58,274 nucleotides of DNA from Bacteroidota bacterium (GTDB lineage: Bacteria; Bacteroidota; Bacteroidia; JACCXN01). The translations under genes were made by a program, and so were the position numbers. The notes beneath the pieces were generated by a model that saw nothing but the letters and a program-made list of their open reading frames with translations, did not search any database and was not told where the DNA came from. The stretch covers positions 1 through 58,274 of the forward strand of contig JACCXN010000060.1 in NCBI GenBank assembly GCA_013696965.1. Direction: 5' to 3'. Positions 10,423 through 36,403 of the stretch are shown here, piece by piece; position 1 is the stretch's first letter; each line of letters starts with the position of its first letter.

Positions 10423-13400
10423 CTATTGTAACACCAATTTATGGATAGTTAATTCATCCCCGGTATTCAATTTCAAAAAGTAAACACCTCTTGCCAAATT
10501 ATTCAAATTGATTTGTTTAATATAATGGTTAGGGGTGTTTTTATCTATTGCATTGTATACTTGCTTTCCATTTAAATCAACAATACTAATTAACAATTGT
10601 TCAAAGGTGGCGTTGCTTATTGCAATGTTGAACATGCCAATTGTTGGATTTGGATAAATTACAAATGCAGCTTTGGTACTTTCCTTTATATCTGTGCAGA
10701 TATCAACTATAATTTGTTCAGTAACTGAGTTTGAACAAAGATTGGAGCCTGTAACTGTATAAGTAATGCCATATGTTCCGCCTCCTACTGCTGTTGGATC
10801 AAACATTCCCCCTGAAACACCAGGGCCAGAATAAACACCACCGGAAGGAGAACCACCGGTTAAAGCAAAGGAAGTTCCATTATCACACACAGGTGAAGTA
10901 AAGGCATCAAAACTAACAGTAGGCAGATCATCAATAGTCACCTCAATAGAAGCATTGCTAGCACAACCTGTATTAGGTTCAGTTACCATTACTGAATAAG
11001 TTCCATTGGTGGTTACCAGCAGTGTTTGATCTGTTGTAAGATCATTCCAAACATAACCCATTCCAGGATTTTCGGCATCCAATAAAACAGTTCCACCGCA
11101 TTGAGTGATATCTGAACCAAGATTGATAACCGGATTTGGGTTTATCATTACTTCTACAGTATCTGCATTACTGCATTCTGTAGCAGGATCAGTTACTGTA
11201 ACTGAATAAGATCCACTTAAAGATACAGTTAACGTTTGATTTGTTGTTAAATCATTCCATTCATAATCCATTCCTGGGTTTTCTGCATCAATTAAAATTG
11301 TGCCACCACATTGAATAATATCAGCACCAAGGTAAACAACAGGGATAGGGTTTACAATTACATCAATAGTATCTGAACTACTGCATCCAGTATTAGGGTT
11401 TGTAACTGTAACAGAATAAATCCCACTGGTGGATGCTGTGAGGGTTTGATTTGTTGTTAAATCATTCCATTCAAAATCCATTGATGTGTTCCCTGCATCT
11501 AATATTTCAGTTCCACAGGCAATAACATCAGCACCCAAATTTACAACAGGAGAGGTATTTACATCAATAGAAACATTATTTGTTGCAGTACAGCCATTAC
11601 CATCCGTAATAATTAAAGAATACATTTCAGAAACTGCAGGATAAGCTATAGGATTTGCAATTGTTGAACTAGATAATGTATTTGTTGGTGTCCAGGCATA
11701 TTGAATTGTACTTGAAACACCTCCAGTTATAGATAAATTATAATCTTCAAATTCACCGTAGCCAGTATTACTACATGATGCAGTAACACCTACAGCGGAG
11801 CTATATTGGCAAGCAACTCTCATACGAGTTATTCCATTAAGTGCAGTGGTTGGGATTGTTATACTACCTGTTGCACTATTTGGTGCTGTGAATGTTGTAG
11901 TTGTATTAAAAACACTTTCCGCGGCTTCAAAAACACCATTTTGATTAAAATCAATCCAGACCCTGAATTGTTGTCCAAATGCGCCGCCTGGGCTAATTGA
12001 AATTGGATATTGGGTTGTTCCATTAGCTATTGCATTGGCTGTTAAAGAACTATAGTACGTATAGCTATTAGCTGCATCTCCACTAAAGTTATTTGTAATA
12101 CCTGCAAATGAAACATTATCAATATAATCACCAGTAGCTCCTGTAAAAGCCACTGTTGGAAAGCAATAAGTAGCTGAAGGCAATATTGCTACAATTTGAG
12201 CACTATCTCCTTCACAAATAATAGCGGGAGTTGAGGTAATTGAAGTAATTACAGGTGAGTTAGAAACATTAACCAGAACAGTATCAGTTGATGTGCATCC
12301 ATTTAATCCTAATCCTGTAACAACATAGGTTGATGTAACAGAAGGAGAAGCCTCAACAACATCACCAGTGGTTGCTGAAAGCCCTTGGGCAGGTGACCAG
12401 GTATATGAATCTGCCCCAGAAGCAATTATTTCAACAGGACTTCCAGGGATACAATAGGTAACAGATGAAGGAGTAACTGTAACTGCAATAGGATTTATGG
12501 TCAATGTAACCTGATCTATCACTACTGAAGAGCAATTGTCAGTTAAAGTAAGTGTGTAAACACCTGCTTGAGCCATAGTAACCATATTTAAAATAGGATT
12601 TTGATCATTCGAAACAAATCCGTTTGGGCCTGTCCATGCATAAGTATATGGTAAACCACCTCCTAAAGCAGTTGAAATCAACGCAACAGTTGTACCCTCA
12701 CACACCGTATCATTTGGTGAGATGTTAACCGATAAGGTTAAGGGATCCACATTCAGGGTAATTGTCTCAGCGGAAGTGCAGCTGGAATATTCAGCAGTAA
12801 CAGTATATGTTGTTGCTGCTGTTACATTTTCTGCAAGAGGATTAGCTATATTGGTTGCCGATAAAAATGTTGCCGGAGACCAATTAAGATTCACATTTGG
12901 GGTTTGAGCAAAAACTATGTTTGGCCTTTGTGAAAATGTACCTGTAATTGCTATATTGGAACAAACACCGGGAGCATCTGCTCTAAAATGCAAGGTTGAA
13001 ACAAAAGGTGTTGCAGATTGGGTTACACTTGCATTTTCAATATAAGCAGTGTTGTTAAAGCATGTTTCTACTATTATATTTGATGTGCCATCCCATACAA
13101 ATTGGGTTGAAAAAACATGAGTATTAAGACCCATTACTGGAATGTAACTAGGTGAATTATATACAGTTGTTCCAAGAGTTGCCCATGAAGTCATTGCTGT
13201 TAGTGAAGTATGACCCATTTTTATCTCGTAATTTGTTAGTGGGGCACCAGCATTTGGGTTTGTAACTAATAAAGCCATTGATTTAATTGGACCTGCAACC
13301 ATGCCTGAAGCAGTTAATTCAGATGCCAAAATAAGCATTTGGTGACGGGCTCCATACCAATAATTGCCATATGGTGCAGGATAGGTTGTTGTACTATTTG

Positions 13401-16400
13401 TTAAAACACCAGTTCCAATTTTGAATGTTTCTGAAATATTTACTTGTAGCTGAGAATTACCACCTGGACATATATCAGAAGGAGAGGCAGTTACTGAAGT
13501 AATTTCAGGAGGATTAGAAACACTAACAAGAACTGTATCAACAGCAATACAACCGTTTAATGCCAGACCTGAAACAATATAGTATGTTGATCCAGAAGGA
13601 GAGGCTTGAACAATATCACCTGAAGTTGACGAAAGCCCAGTACTTGGCGACCATGTATAAGTATCAGCACCCGTTGCGTTTAATTGAACTGCGCTTCCCC
13701 CTGTACAATATGTAACTGCTGAAGGTGTAACCGTAACTGATGAAGGGTTTATTGTTAAGGTCACCTGATCTGTAATTACTGTTGTGCAATTATCGGTTAA
13801 AGTAAGGGAATAAACACCTGCTGATGACATGGCAACTGAATTTAAAACAGGGTTTTGATCAGTAGAAGTAAATCCATTTGGCCCAGTCCAAGCGAAAGAA
13901 TATGGACTTCCTCCGCCCACGGGTATTGAATTTAAGGTAACATTCGTGCCTTCACAAACAGTGTTATCCGGAGAAATGCTAACAGATAAGGATAAAGTAC
14001 TAATATTTATTGAAACGGTTTCATTAGCAGTACAACCTGAATTGTCAGCAGTAACAGTATATGTAGTTGCAACTGTTACATTTTCTGCAAGAGGATCGTC
14101 TAAATCAGTTGCTGATAAAAATGTTGCTGGAGACCAAGTGAAATCAACACCAGCTTTTTGAGTAAAAAACAAGTTTGGTCGCTGTGAAAAAGTCCCGGTA
14201 CTTGAAGAGCTAGAACATATATTTGATGCATCAGCCCTATAGTGTATTGTTGAAACAAAAGGTGTAGTAGATTGAGAAACACTTGCATTGCTGCTGTAAT
14301 TAGTATTGTTGAAACAAGTTTCAACAATAACATTTGACACCCCATCCCAAACAAATGGAGTAGAGAAAACATGGGTATTAAGGCCTAAAACGGGACTGTA
14401 AGCAAGTGATGAATATACAGTTGTTCCCACAGTTTCCCAGCCAGTCATAGCTGAAATTGCAGAATTACCCATTTTAATGCTATAATTAGCAAGAGGGGCA
14501 CCCCCGTTTAAATTAGTTACATTTAATGCCATTGATTTTATCGGACCTGCTACAAGGCCTGAAGCAGTTAATTCAGAGGCTAAAATAAGCATTTGATGTC
14601 GAGCTCCATACCAAAAGTTACCATAAGGCGCAGGATAGGTTGTGGATGAATTAGTAATAGTACCTGTTCCAATTTGGAAGGAAAAATCAGCAATATTTAC
14701 CTGTAGCTGCGAATTATCACCTGGGCATATGTCAGATGGAGAAGCAGTTACAGATGTAATACTTGGAGTTATTGCAGTAGTAACAATTGCATTAGCTGAA
14801 CTTGAACATCCATTTACACTTAACCCAGTTACCGTATATTGTGTAGATGCGATAGGAGATGCATTCACACTATTTCCGGTAGTAGTGGATAGTCCATTAG
14901 CTGGTGACCATATATATGTACTAGCACCTGAGGCTTCTAATGATATTGGGGTTCCCTGAAGGCAAAAAGTGCTTGTGGTTGGTGTAACCGTAATTATTGG
15001 TAATGGATTTACTGTTACTACTGCTTCATTGGATAAGTCAGTTAAAGGCCCATTACTACATGTAGTTTCCATTACAAAATAATAAGTTCCAGTTGTTAAA
15101 ATACCGGATGTGAAATTTGTTGTGGTTTCACCTGAACCGCCTAATGCATTTGAGTATGGTCCTCCCTGAGTTGAGGAAACTTTCCATTGATATGAAATTC
15201 CGATTTCAGCTGTAGCACCCATGGAGCTTAATGCACGGGTTTGTCCATCACAAATATTATATGTGCCTGGAGTAATTGTACCTCCATCTGCAGTTGAACA
15301 TGAGCTTAAGATATATTCATCAGCCCCAATATTTGGAGTACTCATATTTCTTGCTTCCCCGTCTATATCTGTTGAAATCCAGGTTATGCCTGACATACTA
15401 GCTAATCCAAATAAATTTAAACTTAAAGTATGTAAATCATTTTCATTATTTATAAATTCAGGATTTGAAGAAATTGAATTTGCATCAATAGCTGTTGCAG
15501 GGGTGGTAATAGCCATATCCCAATCAGAAATAGTTGCACGGTCAGAAGCATTTGTTAATGCAGTAAAACCATTTGTTGGATTTGCTATGTAATAATCATT
15601 ATTGTCAACCACAGATGTAGATGATCCCATGGCTGCAGTAGCTGTTGAGTAAATACAATAATGTTTTGCTATTCCTGCCTGAGCATTTGTATAGTTTGCA
15701 AATATATTGCTCCTTACATTGTTAGTAGTGGTTGATCCTCCTAAAGCAAAACAAACATTAGATGCAGTTAAAGATTGACTTCCATTAATACTTATTGAAT
15801 TAAAATTAATATCATAAGTGCTTGTTGCATCCCCTGTTCCCACAAGCATGCCTGTTAATATTCTGGTTGCAGTAGCTGCTCCAGTGTACGCTGAGGAAAT
15901 ATCACTGATAAAGTTATTGTATATTTTCAAATTATGTGTACCTGTGGTGCTAAGGGATAGATCCATCCCTCTTTGCATATTAGTAGAGGTTGTTGAAGTA
16001 TTTCTTATTCCATAAACCTTGTTGTTGTTAACATGAGAAACGCCTTGTCCTGCATTAACAAAAATGCCACGCTTTAAACCAGTAGAGGTTAAATTTCTTA
16101 CTGTATTATTACTTATTGTTGCATTATTTTGGTTAAGAAATTGAATTCCATAGGCATCAATAGCTCCTGTACCTATACTTCCATTTGGTGTTCCACTATA
16201 ACTAGCCCCGATTAAAGATTTTTGCACAATGTTTGACAAGCCAGGAAAAGCAGCCGCACCAGAGGTAATTAAAATACCTCCAAGTCCGCAATTCTCAATA
16301 TATACGCTATCGATTAAATTGTTGTTGTTTGCTCCTGAAGCTGAGGTAGGAGTAAATCCACCACCCGTAGTTGATGAGGAAACAAGTATTCCAATTGCTA

Positions 16401-17523
16401 CATTTCTTGTAATATTTAAAGAAACAGAACAATTCTTGATAATATTGTTAGATGAACCATCCGTTGCGCTGGCGTTTCTTAATAGATAACCATATTCCAT
16501 TTGGGTAGTATTGTTGATATTTGAGGAATGATCCTTAACATCTATTCCATCAAAAGTAAAGTAATCTCCTCCCATTAGGGAAATACCTGCATCAGTAACA
16601 CCTACTCCTGTTAATCCCCTTATAACTGGATTGTCTCCAAGGCCTGATTTTTGAAATGTTATGGTATTTAAAGCTGTACCACTAGCTGTAACAACAGGAG
16701 GTAATTCATCGAAAACTTGCCCTGCAGTTACATTAAAAACAAGTGCATTGTTTATTCCACAGACGTAAGCAGAATTTAACCAGTTAATAGCAGAAGTAAA
16801 TGAGTTAAAGTTATTGCCGGATGTAGGCAGTGTATTATCTATAGTAAAGGTGCCAATTGTTGGGGAAAATGAAGTAGCTGATGTTAATGAAATGTTATCA
16901 ATGGCAGCCGAAGGGTTAGTTCCAATTGATCCATCATTTTTCCATGTGAAAATTAATCTTAATGTATTTGGTCCTGCACAATTTCCTGCAAGGGATGAGG
17001 GAATAATAATGGTTTTAGACTGAACTGTTGCTGAATTCCATGCTCTTCCGATTTCAATTGCAGGAGCATTCAAAACATTTAAACCAAGACTTACACTAGA
17101 TGCTGTTGGGATGTACGAAATAGGAGCTAAGGAAACAATTACTCCATCCCAAAAGGTTGATTCACCTAATCCCTGCCAATCAAAAACAAGTTTAATTGCA
17201 GTTTCTCCTGTAGGAAATGTAACATCTCTGTAGAAATGAACTACGGATATAGAATTATTAGTATAGGCATGAGTAACCCCATTATTATCGCTAATAAATG
17301 CACTACTATTTGGAAATGAAGCAGGAGCAGTTCCTATATGCCATTTATTTGTTAACGATCCATTTGCAACTGTCCATCCATTGTCAGTAAAAGTGGGGCC
17401 ATTTGAAAACCCTCCATCTCCAGAAGCATCAATTAAAACGGTTTGTGCATTTAACGATAAAATCATTAATAAACACGTTGAAAATAGCGTCAATAGAGCT
17501 TTAGCGGTGTAATTTTTTTTCAT
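10423..17523 (-). CDS. Giant T9SS-secreted surface protein with beta-helix, GEVED and Ig-like repeats
   Basis: This 2366-residue protein has a signal peptide (about 1-26). In order it shows an N-terminal beta-sandwich domain (about 30-215), a right-handed parallel beta-helix region rich in Asn and Thr (about 230-720), several PKD/Ig-like modules, two tandem copies of a block of about 420 residues (from about 922 and 1342), a GEVED domain (GEFEDYNLSI near 1923), three further Ig-like repeats of about 71 residues with the WNDLTT core, and a type A T9SS sorting domain (IYPNPTIGMFNI to the end). The role is probably adhesion or surface binding. It stands alone, is flanked by two similar terminators, and separates thioredoxin/DUF6952 from the peroxiredoxin gene. 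The long plus-strand open frames inside it are shadows. Confidence 0.93.
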   Translation of the reverse strand: MKKNYTAKALLTLFSTCLLMILSLNAQTVLIDASGDGGFSNGPTFTDNGWTVANGSLTNKWHIGTAPASFPNSSAFISDNNGVTHAYTNNSISVVHFYRDVTFPTGETAIKLVFDWQGLGESTFWDGVIVSLAPISYIPTASSVSLGLNVLNAPAIEIGRAWNSATVQSKTIIIPSSLAGNCAGPNTLRLIFTWKNDGSIGTNPSAAIDNISLTSATSFSPTIGTFTIDNTLPTSGNNFNSFTSAINWLNSAYVCGINNALVFNVTAGQVFDELPPVVTASGTALNTITFQKSGLGDNPVIRGLTGVGVTDAGISLMGGDYFTFDGIDVKDHSSNINNTTQMEYGYLLRNASATDGSSNNIIKNCSVSLNITRNVAIGILVSSSTTGGGFTPTSASGANNNNLIDSVYIENCGLGGILITSGAAAFPGLSNIVQKSLIGASYSGTPNGSIGTGAIDAYGIQFLNQNNATISNNTVRNLTSTGLKRGIFVNAGQGVSHVNNNKVYGIRNTSTTSTNMQRGMDLSLSTTGTHNLKIYNNFISDISSAYTGAATATRILTGMLVGTGDATSTYDINFNSISINGSQSLTASNVCFALGGSTTTNNVRSNIFANYTNAQAGIAKHYCIYSTATAAMGSSTSVVDNNDYYIANPTNGFTALTNASDRATISDWDMAITTPATAIDANSISSNPEFINNENDLHTLSLNLFGLASMSGITWISTDIDGEARNMSTPNIGADEYILSSCSTADGGTITPGTYNICDGQTRALSSMGATAEIGISYQWKVSSTQGGPYSNALGGSGETTTNFTSGILTTGTYYFVMETTCSNGPLTDLSNEAVVTVNPLPIITVTPTTSTFCLQGTPISLEASGASTYIWSPANGLSTTTGNSVNASPIASTQYTVTGLSVNGCSSSANAIVTTAITPSITSVTASPSDICPGDNSQLQVNIADFSFQIGTGTITNSSTTYPAPYGNFWYGARHQMLILASELTASGLVAGPIKSMALNVTNLNGGAPLANYSIKMGNSAISAMTGWETVGTTVYSSLAYSPVLGLNTHVFSTPFVWDGVSNVIVETCFNNTNYSSNASVSQSTTPFVSTIHYRADASNICSSSSSTGTFSQRPNLFFTQKAGVDFTWSPATFLSATDLDDPLAENVTVATTYTVTADNSGCTANETVSINISTLSLSVSISPDNTVCEGTNVTLNSIPVGGGSPYSFAWTGPNGFTSTDQNPVLNSVAMSSAGVYSLTLTDNCTTVITDQVTLTINPSSVTVTPSAVTYCTGGSAVQLNATGADTYTWSPSTGLSSTSGDIVQASPSGSTYYIVSGLALNGCIAVDTVLVSVSNPPEITSVTASPSDICPGGNSQLQVNISETFKIGTGVLTNSTTTYPAPYGNYWYGARHQMLILASELTASGMVAGPIKSMALLVTNPNAGAPLTNYEIKMGHTSLTAMTSWATLGTTVYNSPSYIPVMGLNTHVFSTQFVWDGTSNIIVETCFNNTAYIENASVTQSATPFVSTLHFRADAPGVCSNIAITGTFSQRPNIVFAQTPNVNLNWSPATFLSATNIANPLAENVTAATTYTVTAEYSSCTSAETITLNVDPLTLSVNISPNDTVCEGTTVALISTALGGGLPYTYAWTGPNGFVSNDQNPILNMVTMAQAGVYTLTLTDNCSSVVIDQVTLTINPIAVTVTPSSVTYCIPGSPVEIIASGADSYTWSPAQGLSATTGDVVEASPSVTSTYVVTGLGLNGCTSTDTVLVNVSNSPVITSITSTPAIICEGDSAQIVAILPSATYCFPTVAFTGATGDYIDNVSFAGITNNFSGDAANSYTYYSSLTANAIANGTTQYPISISPGGAFGQQFRVWIDFNQNGVFEAAESVFNTTTTFTAPNSATGSITIPTTALNGITRMRVACQYSSAVGVTASCSNTGYGEFEDYNLSITGGVSSTIQYAWTPTNTLSSSTIANPIAYPAVSEMYSLIITDGNGCTATNNVSIDVNTSPVVNLGADVIACGTEILDAGNTSMDFEWNDLTTNQTLTASTSGIYSVTVTNPNTGCSSSDTIDVIVNPIPVVYLGADIIQCGGTILIDAENPGMDYEWNDLTTNQTLTVSLSGSYSVTVTDPATECSNADTVEVMINPNPVINLGSDITQCGGTVLLDAENPGMGYVWNDLTTDQTLLVTTNGTYSVMVTEPNTGCASNASIEVTIDDLPTVSFDAFTSPVCDNGTSFALTGGSPSGGVYSGPGVSGGMFDPTAVGGGTYGITYTVTGSNLCSNSVTEQIIVDICTDIKESTKAAFVIYPNPTIGMFNIAISNATFEQLLISIVDLNGKQVYNAIDKNTPNHYIKQINLNNLARGVYFLKLNTGDELTIHKLVLQ
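10930..11560 (-). repeat. Three tandem ~71-residue Ig-like repeats in the giant gene
   Basis: Three units with the pattern VxLGADxxxCGxxxLDA, then WNDLTTxQTL, then a YSVTVTxP strand follow one another. The matching plus-strand landmarks lie near 11120, 11335 and 11545, a period of about 210 nt. DNA similarity is high (for example TTAAATCATTCCA in two copies), which suggests recent unit duplication. Confidence 0.8.
12250..14760 (-). repeat. Tandem duplication of a ~420-residue block in the giant gene
   Basis: Two adjacent blocks of about 1.26 kb (roughly 13505-14760 and 12250-13500) code for the same domain series: an ASPSDICPG start, a YPAPYGN-WYGARHQMLILASELTASG core, an AFTGPNGF-type Ig module and a TWSPSTGLSSTSGD-type module. 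DNA identity is obvious by eye, for example around 14580-14640 against 13326-13386. A partial third start is replaced by the GEVED domain near 12250. Confidence 0.85.
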
Positions 17524-19501: not shown

Positions 19502-22500
19502 GTGCAAGGGAAAGTTAATTTAGTTTTTCTGTTTTTTTTAATGGTCAAATCCCTGTGGGGACAAAATATTAATTTTAAACACCTTACTCCTGATCAAGGT
19601 CTTTCAGTAAATGAGGTTAACTGCATAGCTCAGGATTCCAAAGGATTTATGTGGTTTGGCACTAAAAACGGTCTTGACAGGTATGATGGAAATAAAATAG
19701 TTTCGTATAAAAATTATCCTGATAATCCCAATACTATTTCTGATAATGATATTTTATATCTATTTGTTGACAATGAGGGGGACATGTGGGTTGGTACTGG
19801 AGATGGAGGCCTCAATTTTTATGAAAGTAATAGGAATAGTTTTAAAACCTACCGTTGGACATTAAACTGTTCAAATTGCATAAGCAACAACACAATTAGA
19901 TCAATTACCCAAGGAAAGGACGGATTGATTTGGATAGGAACCGATGAAGGATTAAATTCCTTGAATAAGAAAACCGGAAAAATCAATACTTACAAAATTG
20001 ATAAGAATAGTAATGATGCCTTTGCTGATAATCAAATATATTCCTTATGCGAGGATAAGGAGGGTGTCTTGTGGATTGGAACAGTAAAAACAGGATTAAT
20101 TGCTTTCGATAAAAGAACTGGAAAGTTTAACAGCAACTTCCCAAAAGGAGATTTTAATAAGAGAATTAGATGTATTTATGAAGATTCTCGAAATAATTTA
20201 TGGATTGGAAGTGATGGGGGAGGATTAAGCCTTTTTGACAGGAATACAGGAGAATTTAAAACTTTTAAATCAAGTGACAAGGAAGGTTCAATTAGTAACA
20301 ATAGAATTTTTTCAATTCTCGAGGATAAAAAAGGTAAACTTTGGGTAGGATCTCTTGGGGGAGGAGTGAATGTATTTGATTACCAAAGTGAAAAGTTCCA
20401 GTCCTTTTATTTTGATTCCAATGACAGATATAGCCTTTCAAGTAATCATGTAAGATATGTTTTTGAGGATAAAGCAGAATCAATATGGATTGCAACAAAT
20501 ACATCAGGAGTATGCGTTTATCACTTAACATCCAATCAGTTCGGACTGCTCAAAAAAGAATCAAAAGGTATTAATTCATTAAAATATACTCCTTTTGGCA
20601 TTATTGAAGATTATAAAGGTTTGCTTTGGATTGGAACTCTAGGGGGAGGCCTTGCCACACTTGACAGAAGCAATTTTACCTATACTTACTATTCTTCAGA
20701 AGAAAATAAAAATCATGAAAATATTCTAACTTTATTTGAAGATAAAGATAGCCTGATTTGGATTGGAAGCTGGGGTGGTGGCCTCAATTATTTTGATCCA
20801 AAGACTAAAAAATTTAGTAAACCATTCACAGCTTCAACTCATTCCATAAATAATAATACAGTAACAACTATAACTCAGGATGAGGATGGAATTATATGGA
20901 TTGGAACGCTAAATGGTTTAAGCGCCTACAATAAAAAAACAGCGCAGTTCAGCAATTATACAATGAACGATGGCCTTTCATCAAATTCTATATTTGCACT
21001 TTCGTATGATGCTCCAAGAAATACATTATGGATAGGTTCAAATGGAGGAGGATTGAATTCTCTGAATACAAAAACAGGTAAAATTGAATTTTTTCGTAAA
21101 ACAGCAGAAAATCCAGAAGGCATAAGCAATAACAACATCAATTGTATTTATGATGATAATGTGGGGAACCTATGGATTGGAACAAAAAAAGGATTAAATA
21201 AATTTGAAAAAAAGACTAAAACTTTTAAAAAATATTACGATTACAATGGCCTTGCAAATGATTACATCTATGGGATTTTACCCGGCCAGGACGGAGATCT
21301 GTGGATAAGTACAAACAAAGGTTTATCCAGGTTTTTACATTTGGAGAAAGAAGGAAATTTATTTAAGAATTATTATGCAATGGATGGATTGCAGGATAAT
21401 GAATTTAATCAGGGAGCTTATTTTAAAAGTTATTCAGGTGAATTGTTTTTTGGTGGTGTAAATGGACTGAATTGTTTTTATCCCTCAAAAATAATTCAAA
21501 ATAAACATGTGCCTCCTATTGTTTTAACATCATTTAAAAAATTCGGGAAAGAGGTTGAATTAGATTCTAATATTATCAATAAAAGTAGGATCACGCTTTC
21601 TTTTAAAGATAATTTTTTGGAATTTGAATTCTGTGCACTTGATTTTGTTTTGCCTTCAAAAAACTTATACTCCTACAGGCTGGAAGGCTTTGATGATGAA
21701 TGGACAACGGTTAGCACAAAGAATTATGCAGTTTTTACAAATTTACAAGGAGGCGATTATGTGTTGCGGGTAAAAGGTTCAAACAATGATGGACTTTGGA
21801 ACGAGCAAACCCTGGCTTTGCAAATTATTGTTCGTCCCCCGTTTTATAAAACAAATTGGTTTTATACACTCTGTGTATTGTGTAGTTTGATTTCAGTATT
21901 CTCCTATACAAGATACAGGACCAGCAGAATAAAAAAGGAAAAGAAAAAACTTGAATTAAAAGTACGAGAAAGAACCACAGAATTAGCTCAAAAAAACAAA
22001 GATATTACAAGTAGCATTCAATATGCTCAAAGAATCCAGGAGGCCATTCTGCCAAAAATTAAAGTAATTCTTGATTCTTTTCCCAACTCCTTTATTTTAT
22101 ATAAGCCTAAGGATATTGTAAGCGGTGATTTTTACTGGTTTTCAGAAAAAAACAATTTAAAAATCATAGCAGTTGTGGATTGTACAGGGCATGGGGTACC
22201 CGGAGCTTTTATGAGTATGATAGGCCACAATTTATTGAACCAAATTGTGGTTGAAAAAGGCATAACTTCCCCAGGTGAAATATTAGCCGAACTGGATGCC
22301 GGAATACAATCTGCATTAAAGCAAAGTTCCTTGGAGTCAGATACAAGAGACGGTATGGATGTGTCCTTATGTGCCATAGATCTTGAAAAAGGGGAAATAA
22401 ATTATTCTGGTGCTTTTCGCCCTTTATATATTGTTCGGAAAAATAAAATTATTATTTACAACGGAAACAGGTTCCCTGTTGGTGGTTCCCAGGGTTACAA

Positions 22501-22753
22501 CAAAATGTTTGAAAGTAATTGCATCAATTTTCAAAAAGATGACATTATATATCTTTTTTCAGATGGTTTTGCCGATCAATTTGGTGGAGAAAAATTAAAA
22601 AAATTCATGGTGAAAAATTTTCAAAAACTATTGCTTGAAATCAATGAATTACCCATGAGCGCCCAACATGATTTTTTAGATAAAGCAATTCAAAACTGGA
22701 TGGGGTTACAGGATCAAGTTGATGATATATTAATCGTTGGAATTAAATTCTAA
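19502..22753 (+). CDS. Two-component-propeller / Y_Y_Y sensor with PP2C (SpoIIE) phosphatase output
   Basis: This is a 1083-residue single-pass sensor. It has a signal peptide (about 1-20), a long periplasmic beta-propeller of about 14 blades marked by repeated D-x-x-G-x-LWIGT motifs (to about 650), a Y_Y_Y domain (YSYRLEGFDDEWT near 735), a membrane helix near 782-803, a coiled coil (about 805-850) and a cytosolic PP2C/SpoIIE domain. The latter has IVSGDFYWF near 870 and VDCTGHGVPGAFM near 891, keeping the metal-binding Asp residues. Usually this propeller architecture ends in a histidine kinase or a DNA-binding domain; here it ends in a phosphatase. The start is GTG at 19502, chosen because it gives a complete signal peptide. 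The SiaB- and SiaC-like genes downstream suggest a partner-switching output. Confidence 0.92.
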   Translation: MQGKVNLVFLFFLMVKSLWGQNINFKHLTPDQGLSVNEVNCIAQDSKGFMWFGTKNGLDRYDGNKIVSYKNYPDNPNTISDNDILYLFVDNEGDMWVGTGDGGLNFYESNRNSFKTYRWTLNCSNCISNNTIRSITQGKDGLIWIGTDEGLNSLNKKTGKINTYKIDKNSNDAFADNQIYSLCEDKEGVLWIGTVKTGLIAFDKRTGKFNSNFPKGDFNKRIRCIYEDSRNNLWIGSDGGGLSLFDRNTGEFKTFKSSDKEGSISNNRIFSILEDKKGKLWVGSLGGGVNVFDYQSEKFQSFYFDSNDRYSLSSNHVRYVFEDKAESIWIATNTSGVCVYHLTSNQFGLLKKESKGINSLKYTPFGIIEDYKGLLWIGTLGGGLATLDRSNFTYTYYSSEENKNHENILTLFEDKDSLIWIGSWGGGLNYFDPKTKKFSKPFTASTHSINNNTVTTITQDEDGIIWIGTLNGLSAYNKKTAQFSNYTMNDGLSSNSIFALSYDAPRNTLWIGSNGGGLNSLNTKTGKIEFFRKTAENPEGISNNNINCIYDDNVGNLWIGTKKGLNKFEKKTKTFKKYYDYNGLANDYIYGILPGQDGDLWISTNKGLSRFLHLEKEGNLFKNYYAMDGLQDNEFNQGAYFKSYSGELFFGGVNGLNCFYPSKIIQNKHVPPIVLTSFKKFGKEVELDSNIINKSRITLSFKDNFLEFEFCALDFVLPSKNLYSYRLEGFDDEWTTVSTKNYAVFTNLQGGDYVLRVKGSNNDGLWNEQTLALQIIVRPPFYKTNWFYTLCVLCSLISVFSYTRYRTSRIKKEKKKLELKVRERTTELAQKNKDITSSIQYAQRIQEAILPKIKVILDSFPNSFILYKPKDIVSGDFYWFSEKNNLKIIAVVDCTGHGVPGAFMSMIGHNLLNQIVVEKGITSPGEILAELDAGIQSALKQSSLESDTRDGMDVSLCAIDLEKGEINYSGAFRPLYIVRKNKIIIYNGNRFPVGGSQGYNKMFESNCINFQKDDIIYLFSDGFADQFGGEKLKKFMVKNFQKLLLEINELPMSAQHDFLDKAIQNWMGLQDQVDDILIVGIKF

Positions 22754-22792
22754 ATTGATTTTAATCCTATTGATATAATCTGTAAATTTGTT

Positions 22793-22800
22793 TTAAAATT
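22793..22800 (+). promoter_or_regulatory. -7 box upstream of the lipoprotein gene
   Basis: TAAATTTG matches TAnnTTTG and lies 17 nt before the ATG at 22817. No TTG is seen at the standard -33 distance. Confidence 0.33.
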
Positions 22801-22816
22801 ATAGGAATTAGACCAG

Positions 22817-23632
22817 ATGATAAAGTACCCTTTTTTTTTCAACCTAACTTTAATAATTCTCGCATTAATGATTGTTTCCTGTGAAAAGGAGAAAACAGAC
22901 ACAGAGGTTGAAACTGCTAAGGATCATGCGGTTGTTGAAATGAATTTCATTAGTATTTTTTCAACAATTCATTCATTAGGTATTCAAGAGAATGGATTTA
23001 AAAAAACCGAAGCAATAAAAAATATTTGTGCCAGTATTGAATCCTTTGGCGATACTTTGAATTTCCCAAACAGTGGTCCCATTAGAGTGGATATTGATTA
23101 TGGTAATTCTGGTTGTACAGGTTCTGATTCAAGGCCTATTCGGGGGAAATTAATGGTTACATTCAATGATAAGTGGTCCAAGCAAGGCGCCATTACAAAT
23201 GTGGAATTGGAGCAATATTTTGTTAACGGAATAAATCTGAATGCAGCGATAATAATTACGAATACAGGAAATAATACATATAGATTTTCTGTAACAAATG
23301 CAAAATGTACAGCTTCCACCTGGTCAGTAAAATACAATTCGAGCCTTGAAATTAAACAATCAGAAGGTGCGGGTACAAAATCAATTATATCAGATGATGT
23401 ATTTGAAATAACAGGTAGTGCAGACGGTATAAGTAGAATTAATAAAACATATGTTTCCAATATTGCATTTCCTGTTATTCTAAGGAGTTCTTGCAAATGG
23501 TTGGAAAGTGGAATTTGTGAAATTACACCCCAGGATGCAGGTAAAAGAAGCTTAAATTATGGTCATGGAAATTGTGATAATGAGGCTGTAATTTCAATTA
23601 ATGGAGATATTTATCAGATTGAGCTAAAATAA
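22817..23632 (+). CDS. Hypothetical lipoprotein
   Basis: I do not recognise a named family. The 271-residue product has a signal peptide and lipobox ending at Cys22 (LMIVSC, then EKEK), so it is probably anchored in the outer membrane. The mature part looks beta-rich, with DYGNSGCTGSDSRPIRGKLMV near 93-113 and four further cysteines that could pair as disulfides (FSVTNAKC, RSSC, SGIC, GNC). Similar lipoproteins of unknown role occur in Bacteroidota. It lies between the propeller phosphatase and the SiaB-like gene, 63 nt after the former, but has its own promoter-like box. Confidence 0.8.
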   Translation: MIKYPFFFNLTLIILALMIVSCEKEKTDTEVETAKDHAVVEMNFISIFSTIHSLGIQENGFKKTEAIKNICASIESFGDTLNFPNSGPIRVDIDYGNSGCTGSDSRPIRGKLMVTFNDKWSKQGAITNVELEQYFVNGINLNAAIIITNTGNNTYRFSVTNAKCTASTWSVKYNSSLEIKQSEGAGTKSIISDDVFEITGSADGISRINKTYVSNIAFPVILRSSCKWLESGICEITPQDAGKRSLNYGHGNCDNEAVISINGDIYQIELK

Positions 23633-23689
23633 AAGCAGTTTGAATAAAACATTTAACATTTTTTTTTATTCAAAAAATGTAAAATGTTG

Positions 23690-23719
23690 TTGCAATGTTC
23701 ATACAAATTTTTAAATTTG
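23690..23719 (+). promoter_or_regulatory. Promoter of the siaB-siaC-like operon
   Basis: TTG at 23690-23692, exactly 19 nt, and TAAATTTG at 23712-23719 give a full match to the Bacteroidota consensus. The implied start near 23726 leaves a leader of about 75 nt before the ATG at 23803. It is the best-formed promoter I found in the window. Confidence 0.55.
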
Positions 23720-23802
23720 CTATTATTAAAGCTGTTTTAACTGAATGATTTTTTTTTTTATCATTAACATCGAGGCTTTATAGCTAATTAGAACTATTCA
23801 AA

Positions 23803-24357
23803 ATGTTAGATATTTTTGATTTTTATGAAAAAATGGAACGGAATAATATTCTGTTATCATTTAAAGGGCATATCACATCAGAGCTTCTTACTTCCATTTT
23901 GCAAATAATGGAATCAAAAATGGATCATCTTCAGGAAGAACCAAAAGTTAAGAAAAAAGTTTATAATGTTCTTGTAGAGTGTTTACAGAACTTATATCAT
24001 CACCTTGATGTTAAAACAACAGATGTTGGCAATTGCGAAATTCCAAGATCTGCTATTTTTATGATAGGTAAAATTGACAACCAATATACTATCATTACAG
24101 GAAATTACATTCAAAATAAGAATGTTGAATTTCTTAAGAAAAGAATTGATGAAATCAATCTTATGTCAAAAGATGAACTTAAAACTTTTTATAAATTGAT
24201 CTTGAATAATGGCGAAATGTCTGACAAAGGTGGAGGAGGATTGGGTATGATTGACATTGCAAGGAAATCAGGAGAGAAGCTTAATTATGACTTTGTACCC
24301 ATTGATGATATCACACACTTCTTTAGTTTAAATGTAAAAATTTCTCAACAAATATAA
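23803..24357 (+). CDS. SiaB-family protein kinase
   Basis: The 184-residue cytosolic protein resembles SiaB (DUF6272), a GHKL-fold kinase that phosphorylates SiaC in the Pseudomonas SiaABCD switch. Visible features are an N-box-like VLVECLQNLYHH near 63-74, with Asn in the metal-binding position, and the glycine-rich ATP-lid segment DKGGGGLGMIDIARKSG near 142-158. Length fits the family. A promoter lies upstream, and the SiaC-like gene follows after 13 nt, so the pair is almost certainly co-transcribed. The opposing phosphatase is probably the PP2C protein at 19502. Confidence 0.85.
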   Translation: MLDIFDFYEKMERNNILLSFKGHITSELLTSILQIMESKMDHLQEEPKVKKKVYNVLVECLQNLYHHLDVKTTDVGNCEIPRSAIFMIGKIDNQYTIITGNYIQNKNVEFLKKRIDEINLMSKDELKTFYKLILNNGEMSDKGGGGLGMIDIARKSGEKLNYDFVPIDDITHFFSLNVKISQQI

Positions 24358-24370
24358 ATAAATCACACTT

Positions 24371-24754
24371 ATGGAATCAATTTCAATAGAAGGAACAGCA
24401 AAAACACCAACCATAAAATTTGAACACAACAATGGCTTTTTGGAAATTAAAGGAAGGTCAATACCTGAGAATTCAATTGAATTTTACAAGCCTTTAATTG
24501 ACTGGCTTGAAAAATATTCAACAAGTCCGAAATCAGATACCAATGTGAATATTCAATTGGAATATTTTAATACAAGTTCTTCAAAATGTATTTTGGATGT
24601 TTTTAAAAAGTTAGAATCTATCCACAATAAGGGAAGTCAAATTGTTATTAACTGGTATTATGAGGAGGATGATGAGGATATGTTAGAGGCTGGTGAAGAT
24701 TACCAGGCAATCATTAATATTCCATTTAAAATGATTCAATTGGAAGAAGAATAG
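24371..24754 (+). CDS. SiaC-family regulatory phosphoprotein (DUF1987)
   Basis: The 127-residue protein matches the SiaC/DUF1987 pattern: an N-terminal TPTIKFEHNNGFLEIKGRS strand pair, then IQLEYFNTSSSK near 61-72, and an acidic middle (YYEEDDEDMLEAGEDY). In Pseudomonas SiaC the phosphorylated residue is Thr68; here Thr68 falls in the same NTSSSK motif. SiaC is phosphorylated by SiaB, dephosphorylated by the PP2C protein SiaA, and in its free form activates a diguanylate cyclase. No cyclase gene lies in this window, so the target here is unknown. A strong terminator follows the gene. Confidence 0.88.
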   Translation: MESISIEGTAKTPTIKFEHNNGFLEIKGRSIPENSIEFYKPLIDWLEKYSTSPKSDTNVNIQLEYFNTSSSKCILDVFKKLESIHNKGSQIVINWYYEEDDEDMLEAGEDYQAIINIPFKMIQLEEE

Positions 24755-25155: not shown

Positions 25156-28100
25156 TTATCTTCCTTTTCCTCTGCCAGCCAAAGAGGCAACATATTCAAT
25201 CCCTTTGATTGTTTTTCTGAAAACATCAAAATAAAGAGTGATGGCCAAGATAAAGGACATAACCCAAATCACTAAAACATTCATCCAAAACGTATCAATA
25301 TATTTCCCAAAGATCTTTTTACGCGGAGCAAAAAAATGGGCTCTTATGTTTCCAGATTTTACAGGATCAAGGTAAACAGGATCTGAGCGTTGAATTAATT
25401 CGTCATTTTTTTCCAATATTTTATTGATTTCCGCCCTGTTTGTAACAAGATCAGATAGATTGTCATTCTTGTAATTGTTTTGCAAGTTGATGTATTCTTC
25501 TTTGGTTTCAGCCGTAGAAGTCATTTTCATTATAACCCTGTCTTTTTGTTCTTCGGCATGGTTGTATGATTTCATGTAATGGCTGTTCAGCTTATCCGTA
25601 TAGCTTCTCAAGGTATTTACAACAGTAGGATTGCCAAATTCGGATAGCTTAATTTTAGACAGATCAAATTCAATTTCTGGCGATAATTTTTGCTCCAGTA
25701 TAAATTCATTTTTCAATAAATTTATATCGCGTGTTACTTGTTCCGCCTTTTCTGGAACATCGAAATTGTTTTCTACAAAGTCAATTTTACTTTTAATTTT
25801 AGATATCCAGAATATTTTTTTGAATTCAGCATTTTTTGCATTTTTATCAAATGCATAAAATTCTTTTTCAAAGTTGTTATCCTTGAACTGAGTTACTGCC
25901 AAGGCCTCGAAGGCCCAACGGGAAACCATTACTTCGCCTGTTAGAGGTACGGTATTGACTGCAGCTATGTAGGGGTTTAATTTTTCGAATTTTACAATTA
26001 CCCCGCTTAATAACAATTGAGGAATAAGTAAAAATGGAATCAGGATGTAAATTGTAACTGCAGAATTAAATGCCGATGAAATATTTAATCCAAGCATATT
26101 GGCAAAGCAAGCTGTTGAAAATAAAATTAACCAATACTCAAATGTCATTCCTCTTAGCTCTAAAATAAAATTGGCAATTAAAATAAATGTAAGCGTTTGA
26201 ATGGAGGAAAGTAAAAACATAATTCCAATTTTGGAAAACAGGTAACTTCCTTTACTTAAATTCAAAAAAGACTCTCTTTTAAGTATTTTGCGGTCTCTAA
26301 TTATTTCTTCGGCACTCACAGTTAATCCTATGAATAACGCAACCACCACACTCATGAATAAATATGCAGGGATGTTTTCATTTTCTCTGAAAATATATCC
26401 ACGAATATTAGAAATATCACTGTTGTAATATTTTACAAGAAAAGCAAGAATAATTGCAAGTACTGGGGCTTCCAACATGTTAATAAGCATGTATTGCTTA
26501 TTTGTAAACTTTGAAAGAACATCTCTTGTGACAAAAACAGTGAACTGTTTAATTTTACTTGGTACTTTAAAACTTATTTCAGGAAGTTCAAAATGGTCTT
26601 CATTTTGGTTGTTTTGTAATTTACTTCCTGTATAAAAAGCGTTCCATTCCTTAGGGGATATTTTTCTACTTCTGGTTAAATCCCCATATTCATCCACTAC
26701 TTTGGATTCAATGATATTGAAAATTTGTTCAGGGTTAACATTTCCACAGGTGTTACATTCACTTTCATTACTGTTAACATGATTAACAATCTTCTTAAAA
26801 TATATAATTGCGTCAACTGGGTTGCCATAATAAATTGTGTAGCCACCCAAATCAAGAATCAACAATTTGTCGAACATTTTAAATATTTCAGAAGAGGGCT
26901 GGTGAATAACCACAAAAATAAGCTTTCCTTTTAAGGCCAATTCCTTTAAAAGGTCCATTATATTTTCAGAATCCCTGGAAGATAGTCCAGATGTAGGTTC
27001 ATCTACAAATAAAACGGAAGGTTCCCTTATTAATTCAAGGGCAATGTTTACTCTTTTTCTCTGCCCACCGCTAATAGTTTTTTCAAGGGGGCTTCCAACT
27101 TTAAGATTTCGGGTTTCATACAATCCCAAATTATTTAATACATCAAGAACCTTTTTTGAAATTTGCCTGTCATCTAAATGATCGAAGCATAATTTGGCAT
27201 TGTAATATAGATTTTGATATACTGTAAGTTCTTCGATCAGAAGGTCATCCTGGGAAACATACCCTATTACTCCCTGTATTTTATCTTTTTGCAGGTGAAT
27301 GTCAAATCCATTTATGGTAACAGAACCGGAGGAGGGCCTATCGTTTCCATTAAGCACATTTAATAAAGTAGATTTTCCTGCACCGCTTCCACCCATTATT
27401 CCAATGAGTTTACCCGATTCTTCATACAAATCCAGATGTTGTAACCCTATGGATCCATTTGCAAACCGATATTCTATTGCATTTACATTGAAAGTCAATT
27501 TTGCAACTGTGGTGTCACTCATAAAACAGCTGATAATATCGCTGTAGTATATTGGTTGTACCTTTGAACTACGTATTGATGAACCTTGTGTTAATATATG
27601 TACTTTTTCCCTTAACAGAGGCTGGCCGTTCAGGTATAATTCTGAAGTTCCATAATAGCGCAAAGCATACATATTAACACTGGAGATGTGAAGAATACGT
27701 AATTGTCCGGTTAAAAATTCAGAATAATAATGCTTGCAGTTTTCAAGCTGGTTAGTTTTGTTGTTATCAATAATAAGAACATTAGCAGAATCAGTAACAT
27801 CATCCACTTTGTTTTGCACAAAAGTCATGCATCTTACATATTCCTGTTCATCAATGTTAAATGTATCGGCAACAGTGGAAACAAATTCAATTTCCTGTTC
27901 GGTAATTTCGCCTGCATTTATAAGTTCAATAAGACGAATAAGAACAACAATTTTTTGTTTTTGGGTTAATTCACTGTTGATTTGAGTACAGATTTTTAAA
28001 ATCTTTACTGAATTAACAGAAGTCCTTTTGCGAGCACCTTCTTTTTTAGAGGTTGTGTTGTGATGGGCGTCAATGAATTCATCAAATAAATTTAGATATT

Positions 28101-28233
28101 CATCAACAAGTTCTAAGCTTAGTTGTTGCTTTAAAAAAGAAAGTACAACTTCACGTCCGGTATTTGAAACACCATCAACCTTTGCAACAATTGCAAAGAG
28201 TTGCATAAGAGCCTTTAATATTCTTTCACTCAT
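25156..28233 (-). CDS. ABCG-type ABC transporter with N-terminal TerB-like domain
   Basis: This is a 1025-residue fused transporter. Residues 1-145 are helical and resemble a TerB-like domain, 150-235 may be a small FHA-like or linker region, and 240-470 form an ABC ATPase with Walker A GGSGAGKST (about 281-289), signature ISGGQRKR (388-395), Walker B VLFVDEPTSG (408-417) and H-loop His444. A Cys pair (SECNTCG near 490) follows. Residues 575 to 800 and the last 45 hold about seven membrane helices in ABC-2/White (ABCG) style, with a long external, charged helical loop between them (about 800-975). The substrate is unknown. The gene converges on the siaC operon and stands alone. Confidence 0.88.
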   Translation of the reverse strand: MSERILKALMQLFAIVAKVDGVSNTGREVVLSFLKQQLSLELVDEYLNLFDEFIDAHHNTTSKKEGARKRTSVNSVKILKICTQINSELTQKQKIVVLIRLIELINAGEITEQEIEFVSTVADTFNIDEQEYVRCMTFVQNKVDDVTDSANVLIIDNNKTNQLENCKHYYSEFLTGQLRILHISSVNMYALRYYGTSELYLNGQPLLREKVHILTQGSSIRSSKVQPIYYSDIISCFMSDTTVAKLTFNVNAIEYRFANGSIGLQHLDLYEESGKLIGIMGGSGAGKSTLLNVLNGNDRPSSGSVTINGFDIHLQKDKIQGVIGYVSQDDLLIEELTVYQNLYYNAKLCFDHLDDRQISKKVLDVLNNLGLYETRNLKVGSPLEKTISGGQRKRVNIALELIREPSVLFVDEPTSGLSSRDSENIMDLLKELALKGKLIFVVIHQPSSEIFKMFDKLLILDLGGYTIYYGNPVDAIIYFKKIVNHVNSNESECNTCGNVNPEQIFNIIESKVVDEYGDLTRSRKISPKEWNAFYTGSKLQNNQNEDHFELPEISFKVPSKIKQFTVFVTRDVLSKFTNKQYMLINMLEAPVLAIILAFLVKYYNSDISNIRGYIFRENENIPAYLFMSVVVALFIGLTVSAEEIIRDRKILKRESFLNLSKGSYLFSKIGIMFLLSSIQTLTFILIANFILELRGMTFEYWLILFSTACFANMLGLNISSAFNSAVTIYILIPFLLIPQLLLSGVIVKFEKLNPYIAAVNTVPLTGEVMVSRWAFEALAVTQFKDNNFEKEFYAFDKNAKNAEFKKIFWISKIKSKIDFVENNFDVPEKAEQVTRDINLLKNEFILEQKLSPEIEFDLSKIKLSEFGNPTVVNTLRSYTDKLNSHYMKSYNHAEEQKDRVIMKMTSTAETKEEYINLQNNYKNDNLSDLVTNRAEINKILEKNDELIQRSDPVYLDPVKSGNIRAHFFAPRKKIFGKYIDTFWMNVLVIWVMSFILAITLYFDVFRKTIKGIEYVASLAGRGKGR

Positions 28234-28271: not shown

Positions 28272-28697
28272 TTATTGTTTAAAACCTATGAGCAAAACAG
28301 CGCAACCAGAGGTATTGCCTGAAACCAATTCTGCTTCAATTATACATTCAATGGTAGAATTTATTTTAAAATCCCAATAAGAAGAAGTTTTATAATCAGA
28401 ATTTTTAAAAAGAAGGTTTCGTTGCTTGTCATATACTGAAAATATTAAATTTCCATCTGTTAACCCACTGCATGCAGAGAAACGATAGGTTGTTCCTCCA
28501 AATAAAGTAGCATGAAATTCAGCAACTTCTTTTTCAAGCAACAATGAACGATAGGATTGTCCATCGGAGATAAATTTACCTCCCAGGTGTTTGGAACACA
28601 ATGTGGCAATTGTGTCGCATTGTGCCCAGGCACTGTTACTGACCAAAGCGAAACTCAAAAGTGCGATTGAAACGTGTAATAATATCCTATTTCTCAT
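28272..28697 (-). CDS. Hypothetical secreted protein
   Basis: The 141-residue product has a clear signal peptide ending in AWAQ (about 1-26) and a beta-rich mature part with four cysteines (CDTIATLC, SAC, IEC/GCAV), compatible with disulfides. I do not recognise a named family; similar small exported proteins are seen in Bacteroidota. It lies just upstream (transcriptionally) of the ABC transporter with a 38-nt gap and downstream of a lipoprotein gene on the same strand, so the three may share a transcript. Confidence 0.72.
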   Translation of the reverse strand: MRNRILLHVSIALLSFALVSNSAWAQCDTIATLCSKHLGGKFISDGQSYRSLLLEKEVAEFHATLFGGTTYRFSACSGLTDGNLIFSVYDKQRNLLFKNSDYKTSSYWDFKINSTIECIIEAELVSGNTSGCAVLLIGFKQ

Positions 28698-28737: not shown

Positions 28738-29652
28738 TCAGCTTATAATTTTAGATCTTAATTTTTTGACGCTACTTGCAATGGTTTTAAATTGCTCATC
28801 AGAAATTTTCACTTCAGTTCTGCTGTTTATGGTAGTGGTTTTAGTTGCAACATCAGTTGTTGGCTTTTCATAAATATACACATATTCAACTGCATCAAAA
28901 TCTTCAGCAAGATCAATTAAAAGATCAGTAATTTCTTTAAATTCTTCTTTTTGATAATAAGGGCTTAATAATTTTATTACGTTTTCTAAGGATGATTTTT
29001 GCTCACCAATTCTTTTTATTAATTCAGGATCGTTTTTTTGTTCAGCCGCCTGAATTGCAAAATGTAAGCTTTCAACAAACCCACCCACTAAAATTAAGAC
29101 ACCGATATCGTTTCTTTCCTGGTTCTTTAAGTAAGAGTCACTTGCCCTGTAGGCATCAGAAACAAGAATCAATATGGAATCCTGGTTACCCATGTTTTTT
29201 TCAAATCGTTCTAACAATGTTTTGTCAAAGGCTCCCATAACTCCTAAATCCTCAGCAATACCTTTTATATATTTCAAGTAAAGTAATGCATCCTGAGTTT
29301 GATCATATATAGTAACATAACCCATGTCAGCACCATAAACCCCAAGATTAATAGCTTTTTGAAATTTTGTTGGATAAGCCTCTGAACCTTTTGGAGGATT
29401 TAGCATTTCTTTATTGTAATTGGAACCAAGTTCCTTAATCAATAAAGCAGTTTGAATAGGGGATGGGATAGAAAAAATTTCACCGTTTATAGTTAACAAT
29501 GTAGAATTTGAATGATCAACTTGCTGAATTTCTTCAACTTGTTCTTGCGAATCGTTTGTTTCTTTTCCACCACAACTCACCAGAAAAATGGAAAGTAAAA
29601 AAACGGAAAAAATAAAATCAATAATTTTTACTGGTTTAATAATATTAGCCAT
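28738..29652 (-). CDS. Hypothetical lipoprotein, alpha-helical
   Basis: The frame is open to 29727, but the ATG at 29652 gives a proper signal peptide and lipobox (LSIFLVSC, then GGKE), so I chose it. The mature protein of about 280 residues looks mainly helical, with repeated acidic helices and motifs such as YGADMGYVTIYDQTQDALLYLK near 110. It resembles Bacteroidota lipoproteins of unknown function. No catalytic motif was identified. It is followed at 40 nt by the small secreted protein gene on the same strand. Confidence 0.78.
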   Translation of the reverse strand: MANIIKPVKIIDFIFSVFLLSIFLVSCGGKETNDSQEQVEEIQQVDHSNSTLLTINGEIFSIPSPIQTALLIKELGSNYNKEMLNPPKGSEAYPTKFQKAINLGVYGADMGYVTIYDQTQDALLYLKYIKGIAEDLGVMGAFDKTLLERFEKNMGNQDSILILVSDAYRASDSYLKNQERNDIGVLILVGGFVESLHFAIQAAEQKNDPELIKRIGEQKSSLENVIKLLSPYYQKEEFKEITDLLIDLAEDFDAVEYVYIYEKPTTDVATKTTTINSRTEVKISDEQFKTIASSVKKLRSKIIS

Positions 29653-29803
29653 AAATGTTGTGTATTGAATTATGCTGCAAGTAATAAAAAAAATATCACA
29701 TCTCAAAAAAAAATCTGCGATTAACAAATAATATCCTTTGATGAGCTACTATTTCCCTCAGATTAGCATTATGGAGGTGAGCCGATAAAAAAATGAAAAA
29801 GTA

Positions 29804-35014: not shown

Positions 35015-36403
35015 TCATCGCTTTATAATCTTTCCTTTTTTATGCGTGTTGTTATCTTTATTGAATTCATAAAAATAAATCCCGGCATTTAGAAAGGATA
35101 AATCAAGGTTGTTTTTACCTGGGTTTAATTTTGCAGAATATAATGATTTGCCATAAATATCTTTAATTATAAGACTTTCCTTATTTATACCTTCAAAATC
35201 AATAATTAATTCATCATAAAAAGGATTAGGGTATATAAGAAATTGTAGTGGAATATGTTCGTTTAAAGAAACCGAAGAAATCAAGGTAGAGGCAAAATAG
35301 TTCTGAATAATCTTGTTTGATGGATCGTATTTATTCAAATATTGAATCCTTGTGCTGGCAGTATCTTCATTGTTATCAGTATAAAAATACATAGTAAATG
35401 GTTGTGATGAATTGGCAGGGATTTGAAAACTGAAAGCATTTACCCAAGGCTGCAAGCATACATCAGCACACATGGCAGTTTCCCAACCTGAGGGGATATT
35501 GTTCTGAAGTCGTTTAATTTCAATCTCCGCAGCTGATGAACTATTGTTTGTAAGGGTACTATGTATTTCAATGACAGTTCCAGCTAATGCAGAAGCAAAG
35601 CTGTCAGTATCCAGGTTAAAAACAAAACTACCGCTAGCTGGAGAGGAATTGCAAGGAATTCCAAGCAAACTATCAATATCACATATCATATTATCAGGAG
35701 ATTTGTGAAACCAGGCATGTTTTGTATAAACCACTCCATTCGGTTTTATTAGGTAAGCATTATTTGGGGCAGGCCCAAAATATTCCCACCAATTATTACA
35801 AGGACCATCTAAAAGAACAGTTGGCAAAATAGTCATATTTGAAAGCATAGTGTTGACCAATGTTTTTCTTTGCCCATAAGTTTTAGGCTGTTCATACAAC
35901 ACGCCCTGCTGTTGATTCTGAGAAGTAACCCAGACAGAACCACTATAAGGGCTTGGGCCGTTGATAGGGTGGGCTTCAACAACATTAACAATAAATATCT
36001 TAATGTCATTTGGGTAAGTGTTGTAAATGTAATTTAAAACAGGCATTTTATCTCGGTAAACAGGACAAGTATAATTTCCAGCAACCAGCAATATTGGTTT
36101 GCCTTCAGCAAGTTCAGCCTGAATATGAACAGGATTGCCTGCAGGGGTATAAAAAGTAAAATCAGCAATTGTATCTCCAGATTGTAAGCCGCTTGTTTGA
36201 TAATTCCCTGTATAAACAGGAATCATACAAATAGAATCAGAATCAAGAGGTAGGGAAGCAATTCCAATAGTTGGTTTTAAAAATATGGATTGGCCAAAAA
36301 CCGAAATTATATTTATATTCAATAACAAAATAAAAATATACTTGCTTTGGGATAGGGATATAATTTGTTTTTTTGTCATAGGGTATAACCTTGTTATATT
36401 CAT
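35015..36403 (-). CDS. T9SS-secreted protein with iodothyronine-deiodinase-like thioredoxin fold
   Basis: The product has 462 residues. An alternative start at 36379 (MTKKQ) gives a more usual signal peptide (to GQ near residue 38). Residues about 75-245 form a thioredoxin-fold domain with GNYTCPVYRDKMP (Cys113) and VVEAHPINGP (141-150). These align by eye with the GSCTUPPF and EEAHPSDGW motifs of iodothyronine deiodinases, Cys113 falling at the selenocysteine position. A beta-sandwich follows (about 255-370), and a T9SS type A sorting domain (IYPNPFYDELII to the end). It is predicted to be exported by T9SS. Real deiodinase activity is not implied; a thiol peroxidase or redox role is as likely. 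Confidence 0.83.
   Translation of the reverse strand: MNITRLYPMTKKQIISLSQSKYIFILLLNINIISVFGQSIFLKPTIGIASLPLDSDSICMIPVYTGNYQTSGLQSGDTIADFTFYTPAGNPVHIQAELAEGKPILLVAGNYTCPVYRDKMPVLNYIYNTYPNDIKIFIVNVVEAHPINGPSPYSGSVWVTSQNQQQGVLYEQPKTYGQRKTLVNTMLSNMTILPTVLLDGPCNNWWEYFGPAPNNAYLIKPNGVVYTKHAWFHKSPDNMICDIDSLLGIPCNSSPASGSFVFNLDTDSFASALAGTVIEIHSTLTNNSSSAAEIEIKRLQNNIPSGWETAMCADVCLQPWVNAFSFQIPANSSQPFTMYFYTDNNEDTASTRIQYLNKYDPSNKIIQNYFASTLISSVSLNEHIPLQFLIYPNPFYDELIIDFEGINKESLIIKDIYGKSLYSAKLNPGKNNLDLSFLNAGIYFYEFNKDNNTHKKGKIIKR

Follow-up and report, generated by a model that had tools for sequence, protein, structure and literature searches.

What does a SiaABC-type partner switch control in a bacterium whose genome encodes no enzyme that makes cyclic-di-GMP, the biofilm second messenger whose production this switch starts in Pseudomonas? 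The question is raised by a gene cluster in the window, i.e. the whole stretch of 58,274 nucleotides that was analysed (contig JACCXN010000060.1 of a Bacteroidota bacterium), in which the genes for a receptor phosphatase, a lipoprotein, a SiaB-family kinase and a SiaC phosphoprotein follow one another (Table 1). In our explanation, to which we assign a probability of around 0.72 and which is as a whole without biochemical support, the cluster specifies a partner switch of the SiaABC type in which a diguanylate cyclase is no longer the end point and a neighbouring ABC transporter is the most likely output.

Table 1. Positions within the window of the Sia cluster, its neighbours and a further phosphatase of the same type
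Feature	Position	Strand	Basis
SiaA-type receptor phosphatase	19502-22753	+	Profile searches, SiaA alignment; signal peptide and transmembrane segment read from the sequence
Stalk motif KNKDITSSIQYAQRIQEAILP preceding the PP2C domain	21977-22057	+	Tracks SiaC across genomes
PP2C/SpoIIE catalytic domain with SiaA-type metal-binding Asp residues and DGxxDQ loop	22166-22750	+	
Conserved predicted lipoprotein without family; fixed partner between receptor and SiaB	22817-23632	+	
SiaB-family (DUF6272) kinase	23803-24357	+	Pfam, NCBIfam, active-site alignment
SiaC (PF09345) phosphoprotein	24371-24754	+	Pfam, NCBIfam, structure-sequence alignment
Thr68 codon, expected phospho-acceptor (NTSSSK)	24572-24574	+	Alignment
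TerB/FHA-like/ABC/ABC-2 transporter, convergent with SiaC; candidate output	25156-28233	-	
Small protein of the ABC gene cluster, predicted to be secreted and conserved along with the cluster	28272-28697	-	
Predicted lipoprotein of the ABC gene cluster, likewise conserved along with the cluster	28738-29727	-	
Second SiaA-type PP2C in the window (TPR-PP2C), same stalk motif at 39613-39693	38215-40386	+	

The receptor is encoded by an intact open reading frame (1083 aa) and is composed of a signal peptide, a Reg_prop propeller, a Y_Y_Y domain, one transmembrane segment, a coiled-coil stalk and a PP2C domain. Pfam recovered Reg_prop in nine stretches (E 1e-64), Y_Y_Y at 5e-19 and SpoIIE/PP2C at 6e-18; no histidine-kinase domain (HisKA/HATPase) was detected by Pfam in the protein, which has SpoIIE at its C-terminus instead. 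The NCBIfam SiaA model matched residues 807-1083 at 1.8e-59, under the equivalog cut-off, and the SiaA structure 6k4e aligns with the last ~280 residues at 5e-36, its metal-binding Asp residues and pre-domain stalk being kept. The first-pass annotation, which had described a propeller/Y_Y_Y receptor ending in a PP2C phosphatase, is supported by these matches. The type of periplasmic sensor is shared with the Bacteroidota hybrid two-component systems (Reg_prop/Y_Y_Y), which carry a histidine kinase with a receiver and an AraC domain on the inside, whereas this receptor carries a Ser/Thr phosphatase.

The SiaB- and SiaC-like genes that had been proposed to follow the receptor, the latter with Thr68 in an NTSSSK motif, are likewise intact open reading frames of the expected families. 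SiaB matched DUF6272 at 6e-42 (Pfam) and the 'SiaB family kinase' model NF038262 with 171 bits (cut-off 85), and keeps the catalytic Glu and Asn (E59/N63) and the G-box. SiaC matched PF09345 at 1.6e-46 (Pfam) and has Thr68 within YFNTSSSK, as aligned with PDB entries 6kko and 7e6g. Given that SiaA, SiaB and SiaC of the locus all matched the P. aeruginosa equivalog models (NF038263, NF038264 and NF038265; NCBIfam) under the cut-offs, they are relatives, and by that standard not orthologues, of the P. aeruginosa proteins. The lipoprotein gene inside the cluster was absent from the first-pass annotation. No family was found for its product in Pfam or NCBIfam, and a PDB fold search with its predicted structure, which is beta-rich and confident (pLDDT 84), returned no confident match; Cys, Gly and Asp positions are invariant in the alignment.

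The order Reg_prop-PP2C, lipoprotein, SiaB, SiaC is kept in many Bacteroidota loci, including those of G002 (same family), G020, G022, G038 and G045 and of numerous named MAGs (e.g. L219, L222, L226, L232-L234). In two genomes of another class (G178 and G186) the same order is found without the lipoprotein. The co-occurrence of the three genes in relatives, which had been proposed as a check, is thus wide, and considering that the order recurs in so many of them the cluster is not a product of chance. In G213, PP2C and SiaB form one protein adjoining SiaC; such a natural fusion, joining a SiaA-type PP2C to a SiaB domain, is seen at L112 (8165-10045), where it adjoins both SiaC and a stalk-TM protein.

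No GGDEF domain was found in the whole genome, nor in any of 60 relatives of the class, though 41 of these possess SiaC; the same search was positive in 8 of 14 control genomes. Since the genome is a draft of 106 contigs that is rated 100% complete, a missed GGDEF gene is unlikely, yet still possible. The lack of a diguanylate cyclase, initially claimed for the window, therefore extends well beyond it, and in the absence of any enzyme making cyclic-di-GMP the switch must control something else. The literature search, for which most subscription papers were out of reach, yielded no GGDEF-free SiaABC system, no SiaC effector other than SiaD, and no earlier description of DUF1987/SiaC in Bacteroidetes or of Reg_prop-SpoIIE. 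With SiaABCD of P. aeruginosa (PMC7647112, PMC8457831) the cluster shares the membrane PP2C, the DUF6272 kinase, SiaC with its Thr68, the PP2C stalk (KKIGDSLDYASLIQRAILP in 6k4e) and the order PP2C-SiaB-SiaC. It differs in the sensor (propeller/Y_Y_Y and not the HAMP of SiaA), in the extra lipoprotein and the linked ABC transporter, in the ~29 PP2C domains for three SiaC and in the absence of SiaD along with GGDEF.

The SiaA-type PP2Cs could be recognized by two signatures. The stalk motif, DSIxYAxxIQxAILP, was discernible in 28 of the 29 SpoIIE-containing proteins of the genome (one of which has a looser version), with S, Y, A and Q invariant in 23 aligned rows, and a 29-residue model, which was built from proteins of this genome, identified 31 places in it. 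Within a phylum sample of 247 genomes, SiaC was present in 14, the stalk motif in 15 and PP2C in 186. All 14 genomes with SiaC had the motif, against 1 of 233 without (1 of 172 among those that lack SiaC and have PP2C; Fisher p 4e-20 over the PP2C-bearing genomes, uncorrected for phylogeny). Considering how widespread PP2C is and that the motif is nearly confined to genomes with SiaC, the motif follows SiaC and not PP2C. Among the 60 class relatives it was found in 40 of the 41 with SiaC and in none of the 19 without. One exception in the phylum sample (G066, L268) has a weak motif match (E 6e-4) in a PP2C and no SiaC, and one among the relatives (G046, L269) has SiaC and SiaB and no PP2C with the motif. 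The second signature is the DGxxDQ loop, which is present in SiaA-type PP2Cs and was found in 0 of 17 sampled PP2Cs from SiaC-less genomes, where the sequence is DGVTEA-like; in a published simulation the PP2C region docked to SiaC lies near the position of this loop (PMC7647112). The stalk motif itself may mark the control of PP2C dimers, not the docking of SiaC. Its equation with the docking motif of SiaD was dropped, as Ser is common to both and Tyr sometimes, while the cores differ. Two sequences elsewhere in the genome end just past the motif without a PP2C domain, namely a TPR protein with a transmembrane segment (L101, G000:C94:7685-9600) and a fragment (L093, G000:C43:2934-3017), which are either docking-only proteins or decayed duplicates. 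As to other proteins of the window, type IX secretion sorting tails were observed on three (10423-17523, 35015-36403 and 36718-37932), one of which is a GEVED/Ig-like surface protein of 2366 aa.

In total, the genome contains three SiaC, three DUF6272 domains in two genes and ~29 PP2C domains. The 41 relatives with SiaC together have 648 motif matches against 188 SiaC, and the two counts correlate (rho 0.54; p-values ignore phylogeny). From these counts we infer that many receptor phosphatases probably feed one pool of few SiaC. The one-to-one wiring of receptor and SiaC is probably too simple, given ~29 such PP2Cs for three SiaC and the lipoprotein in the cluster. With this many PP2Cs the receptor of the cluster may also serve another SiaC, the substrate specificity of each PP2C being inferred. 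The second Sia locus of the genome (L068, G000:C57:182028-184059) encodes one protein with two DUF6272 domains, a convergent SiaA-type PP2C and a SiaC whose residue 68 is Ser (FNSGSVK). The orphan SiaC (L067, G000:C74:12340-12702) has Ile as residue 68 and Thr at 69 (FNITSSK) and no adjoining SiaB, and its switching may be unusual.

The known target of SiaC, the parallel coiled-coil stalk of SiaD in P. aeruginosa, is bound around S82, D83 and Q86 (PMC8457831), and siaC has a GGDEF gene as its neighbour in Proteobacteria, Acidobacteria and Clostridia. When a model of the GGDEF stalk only was run on 10,875 non-GGDEF open reading frames, the top ten places were all taken by ones downstream of SiaC (hypergeometric 2e-17, inflated by related loci). 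According to Pfam, the output domains of the stalk proteins comprise HisKA/HATPase (L113, L216 and L235, and together with a receiver in L230), SpoIIE (L105) and GAF with a class III cyclase (L244). Others are short, with a stalk and a membrane part (L112, L136), or consist of the stalk alone (L106, L107, L109). Hpt/HATPase was recovered at L213, where it belongs to a separate, upstream gene. Some of these proteins were retrieved with a later model, into which those found first had been built. In the Bacteroidia relatives, eight strong stalk matches were obtained in five genomes with SiaC, six of them adjoining SiaC; two of the eight were part of the search model. As a docking stalk 3' of siaC is joined to kinases, a class III cyclase, PP2C and membrane stubs, the output of SiaC looks modular, where its binding to stalks other than that of SiaD is inferred. 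In Azospirillum (L204-L207) the genes 3' of siaC encode a histidine kinase and a GGDEF protein, each with a SiaD-type stalk, possibly two effectors of one SiaC. An Achromatium open reading frame (L242) considered as a SiaC fusion was not counted; its product has Sel1-like repeats and lacks an evident SiaC domain. The nearest precedent is RsbU/RsbT, where the partner acts through a coiled-coil linker, much as proposed for SiaC and the stalk, and for which the exchange of such linkers between phosphatases, kinases and cyclases has been published (PMC12143880). Here, in contrast, SiaC takes the part of the partner and has a stalk motif of its own, and different outputs follow a constant docking stalk adjoining siaC.

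The gene that is linked to SiaC in the window itself, and that was not mentioned in the first-pass annotation, encodes the TerB/FHA-like/ABC transporter. It was found 3' of SiaC in every linked locus (~20), at a distance of <=161 nt in most, with different SiaC subfamilies and in part co-directional (67-149 nt; L102, L108, L140, L276). On the basis of this linkage alone, we infer that the transporter is the most likely output of the cluster. Nearly all structural matches of residues 142-235 are FHA domains, although weak (Z ~6-7.4, Foldseek E 5e-3 or worse), and inspection of the alignment by eye revealed no clear SxxH or NG(T). A role of this domain as a reader of phospho-SiaC is not claimed: the fold is suggested, and the residues that bind phospho-threonine in FHA domains (GR, SxxH, N) are not evident. 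The latter speaks against the transporter as output, as do its convergent orientation in the window and the lack of a SiaD-type stalk.

Put together, the binding of an outer ligand, conjectured in the first-pass annotation to be possibly a glycan, to the propeller/Y_Y_Y part, perhaps with the clustered lipoprotein, would change the coiled-coil stalk and thereby the activity of the inner PP2C. The latter would take the phosphate off Thr68 of SiaC and SiaB would put it back, an inference drawn from homology, from the conservation of the active sites and from the genomic coupling. The many other phosphatases that share this stalk would probably supply the same SiaC pool. Free SiaC would then bind its target, which is the SiaD stalk in P. 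aeruginosa and, if the linkage is a guide, the neighbouring transporter here. STAS proteins are common substrates of SpoIIE-type PP2Cs, and with ~29 such PP2Cs in the genome one could imagine that the receptor acts on another antagonist, like a STAS-type anti-anti-sigma factor, and that its adjacency to SiaB and SiaC is incidental. We consider this very improbable, given a gene order that holds in several families and also in another class, the PP2C-SiaB fusion, and the two PP2C signatures that track SiaC.

More weight has to be given to the possibility that the output is an unrecognized coiled-coil protein elsewhere in the genome, i.e. a diverged protein with a SiaD-type stalk. Proteins with a stalk and two transmembrane segments are encoded directly 3' of siaC in five Bacteroidia relatives without GGDEF (G028, G037, G040, G044, G049), and G037 has the whole set together, including Reg_prop-PP2C, SiaB, SiaC, the stalk protein and a convergent ABC transporter. 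Still, the search for a SiaD-type stalk effector was negative for this genome (E<=0.1) and for most relatives with SiaC, which leaves such an output conceivable with the odds somewhat against it. That SiaC would act back on its receptors, by binding the DSIxYAxxIQ stalks of the PP2Cs and TPR proteins and tuning the phosphatase without a separate effector, fits with a motif that is almost invariant, tracks SiaC and occurs in membrane-bound TPR proteins without PP2C, and with the fact that what SiaC binds in SiaD is a parallel coiled coil (PMC8457831). This is unlikely, however, as the docking motif of SiaD, (I/V)(S/G)DxxQ, and the PP2C motif diverge outside the Ser, the linkers of PP2Cs serve dimer control in RsbU (PMC12143880), and the TPR-only proteins may be decayed duplicates. 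We therefore retain the partner switch without a diguanylate cyclase as our preferred reading. A broader version would hold that SiaC of Bacteroidota is a general regulator of coiled-coil proteins and transport and not a cyclic-di-GMP switch, with tens of receptor phosphatases acting on few SiaC that here directly gate the TerB/FHA-like/ABC exporter, and with the same docking stalk leading to histidine kinases, a class III cyclase and membrane stubs in other lineages; in this full form the proposal is doubtful.

SiaC is known as the activator of one diguanylate cyclase, and the data point to further outputs besides this one: in much of the class Bacteroidia, SiaC is in use without any enzyme that makes cyclic-di-GMP. 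The conserved cluster names two undescribed partners, and the stalk motif offers an easy way of picking out, among the many PP2C receptors of Bacteroidota that have no assigned substrate, those that act on SiaC.
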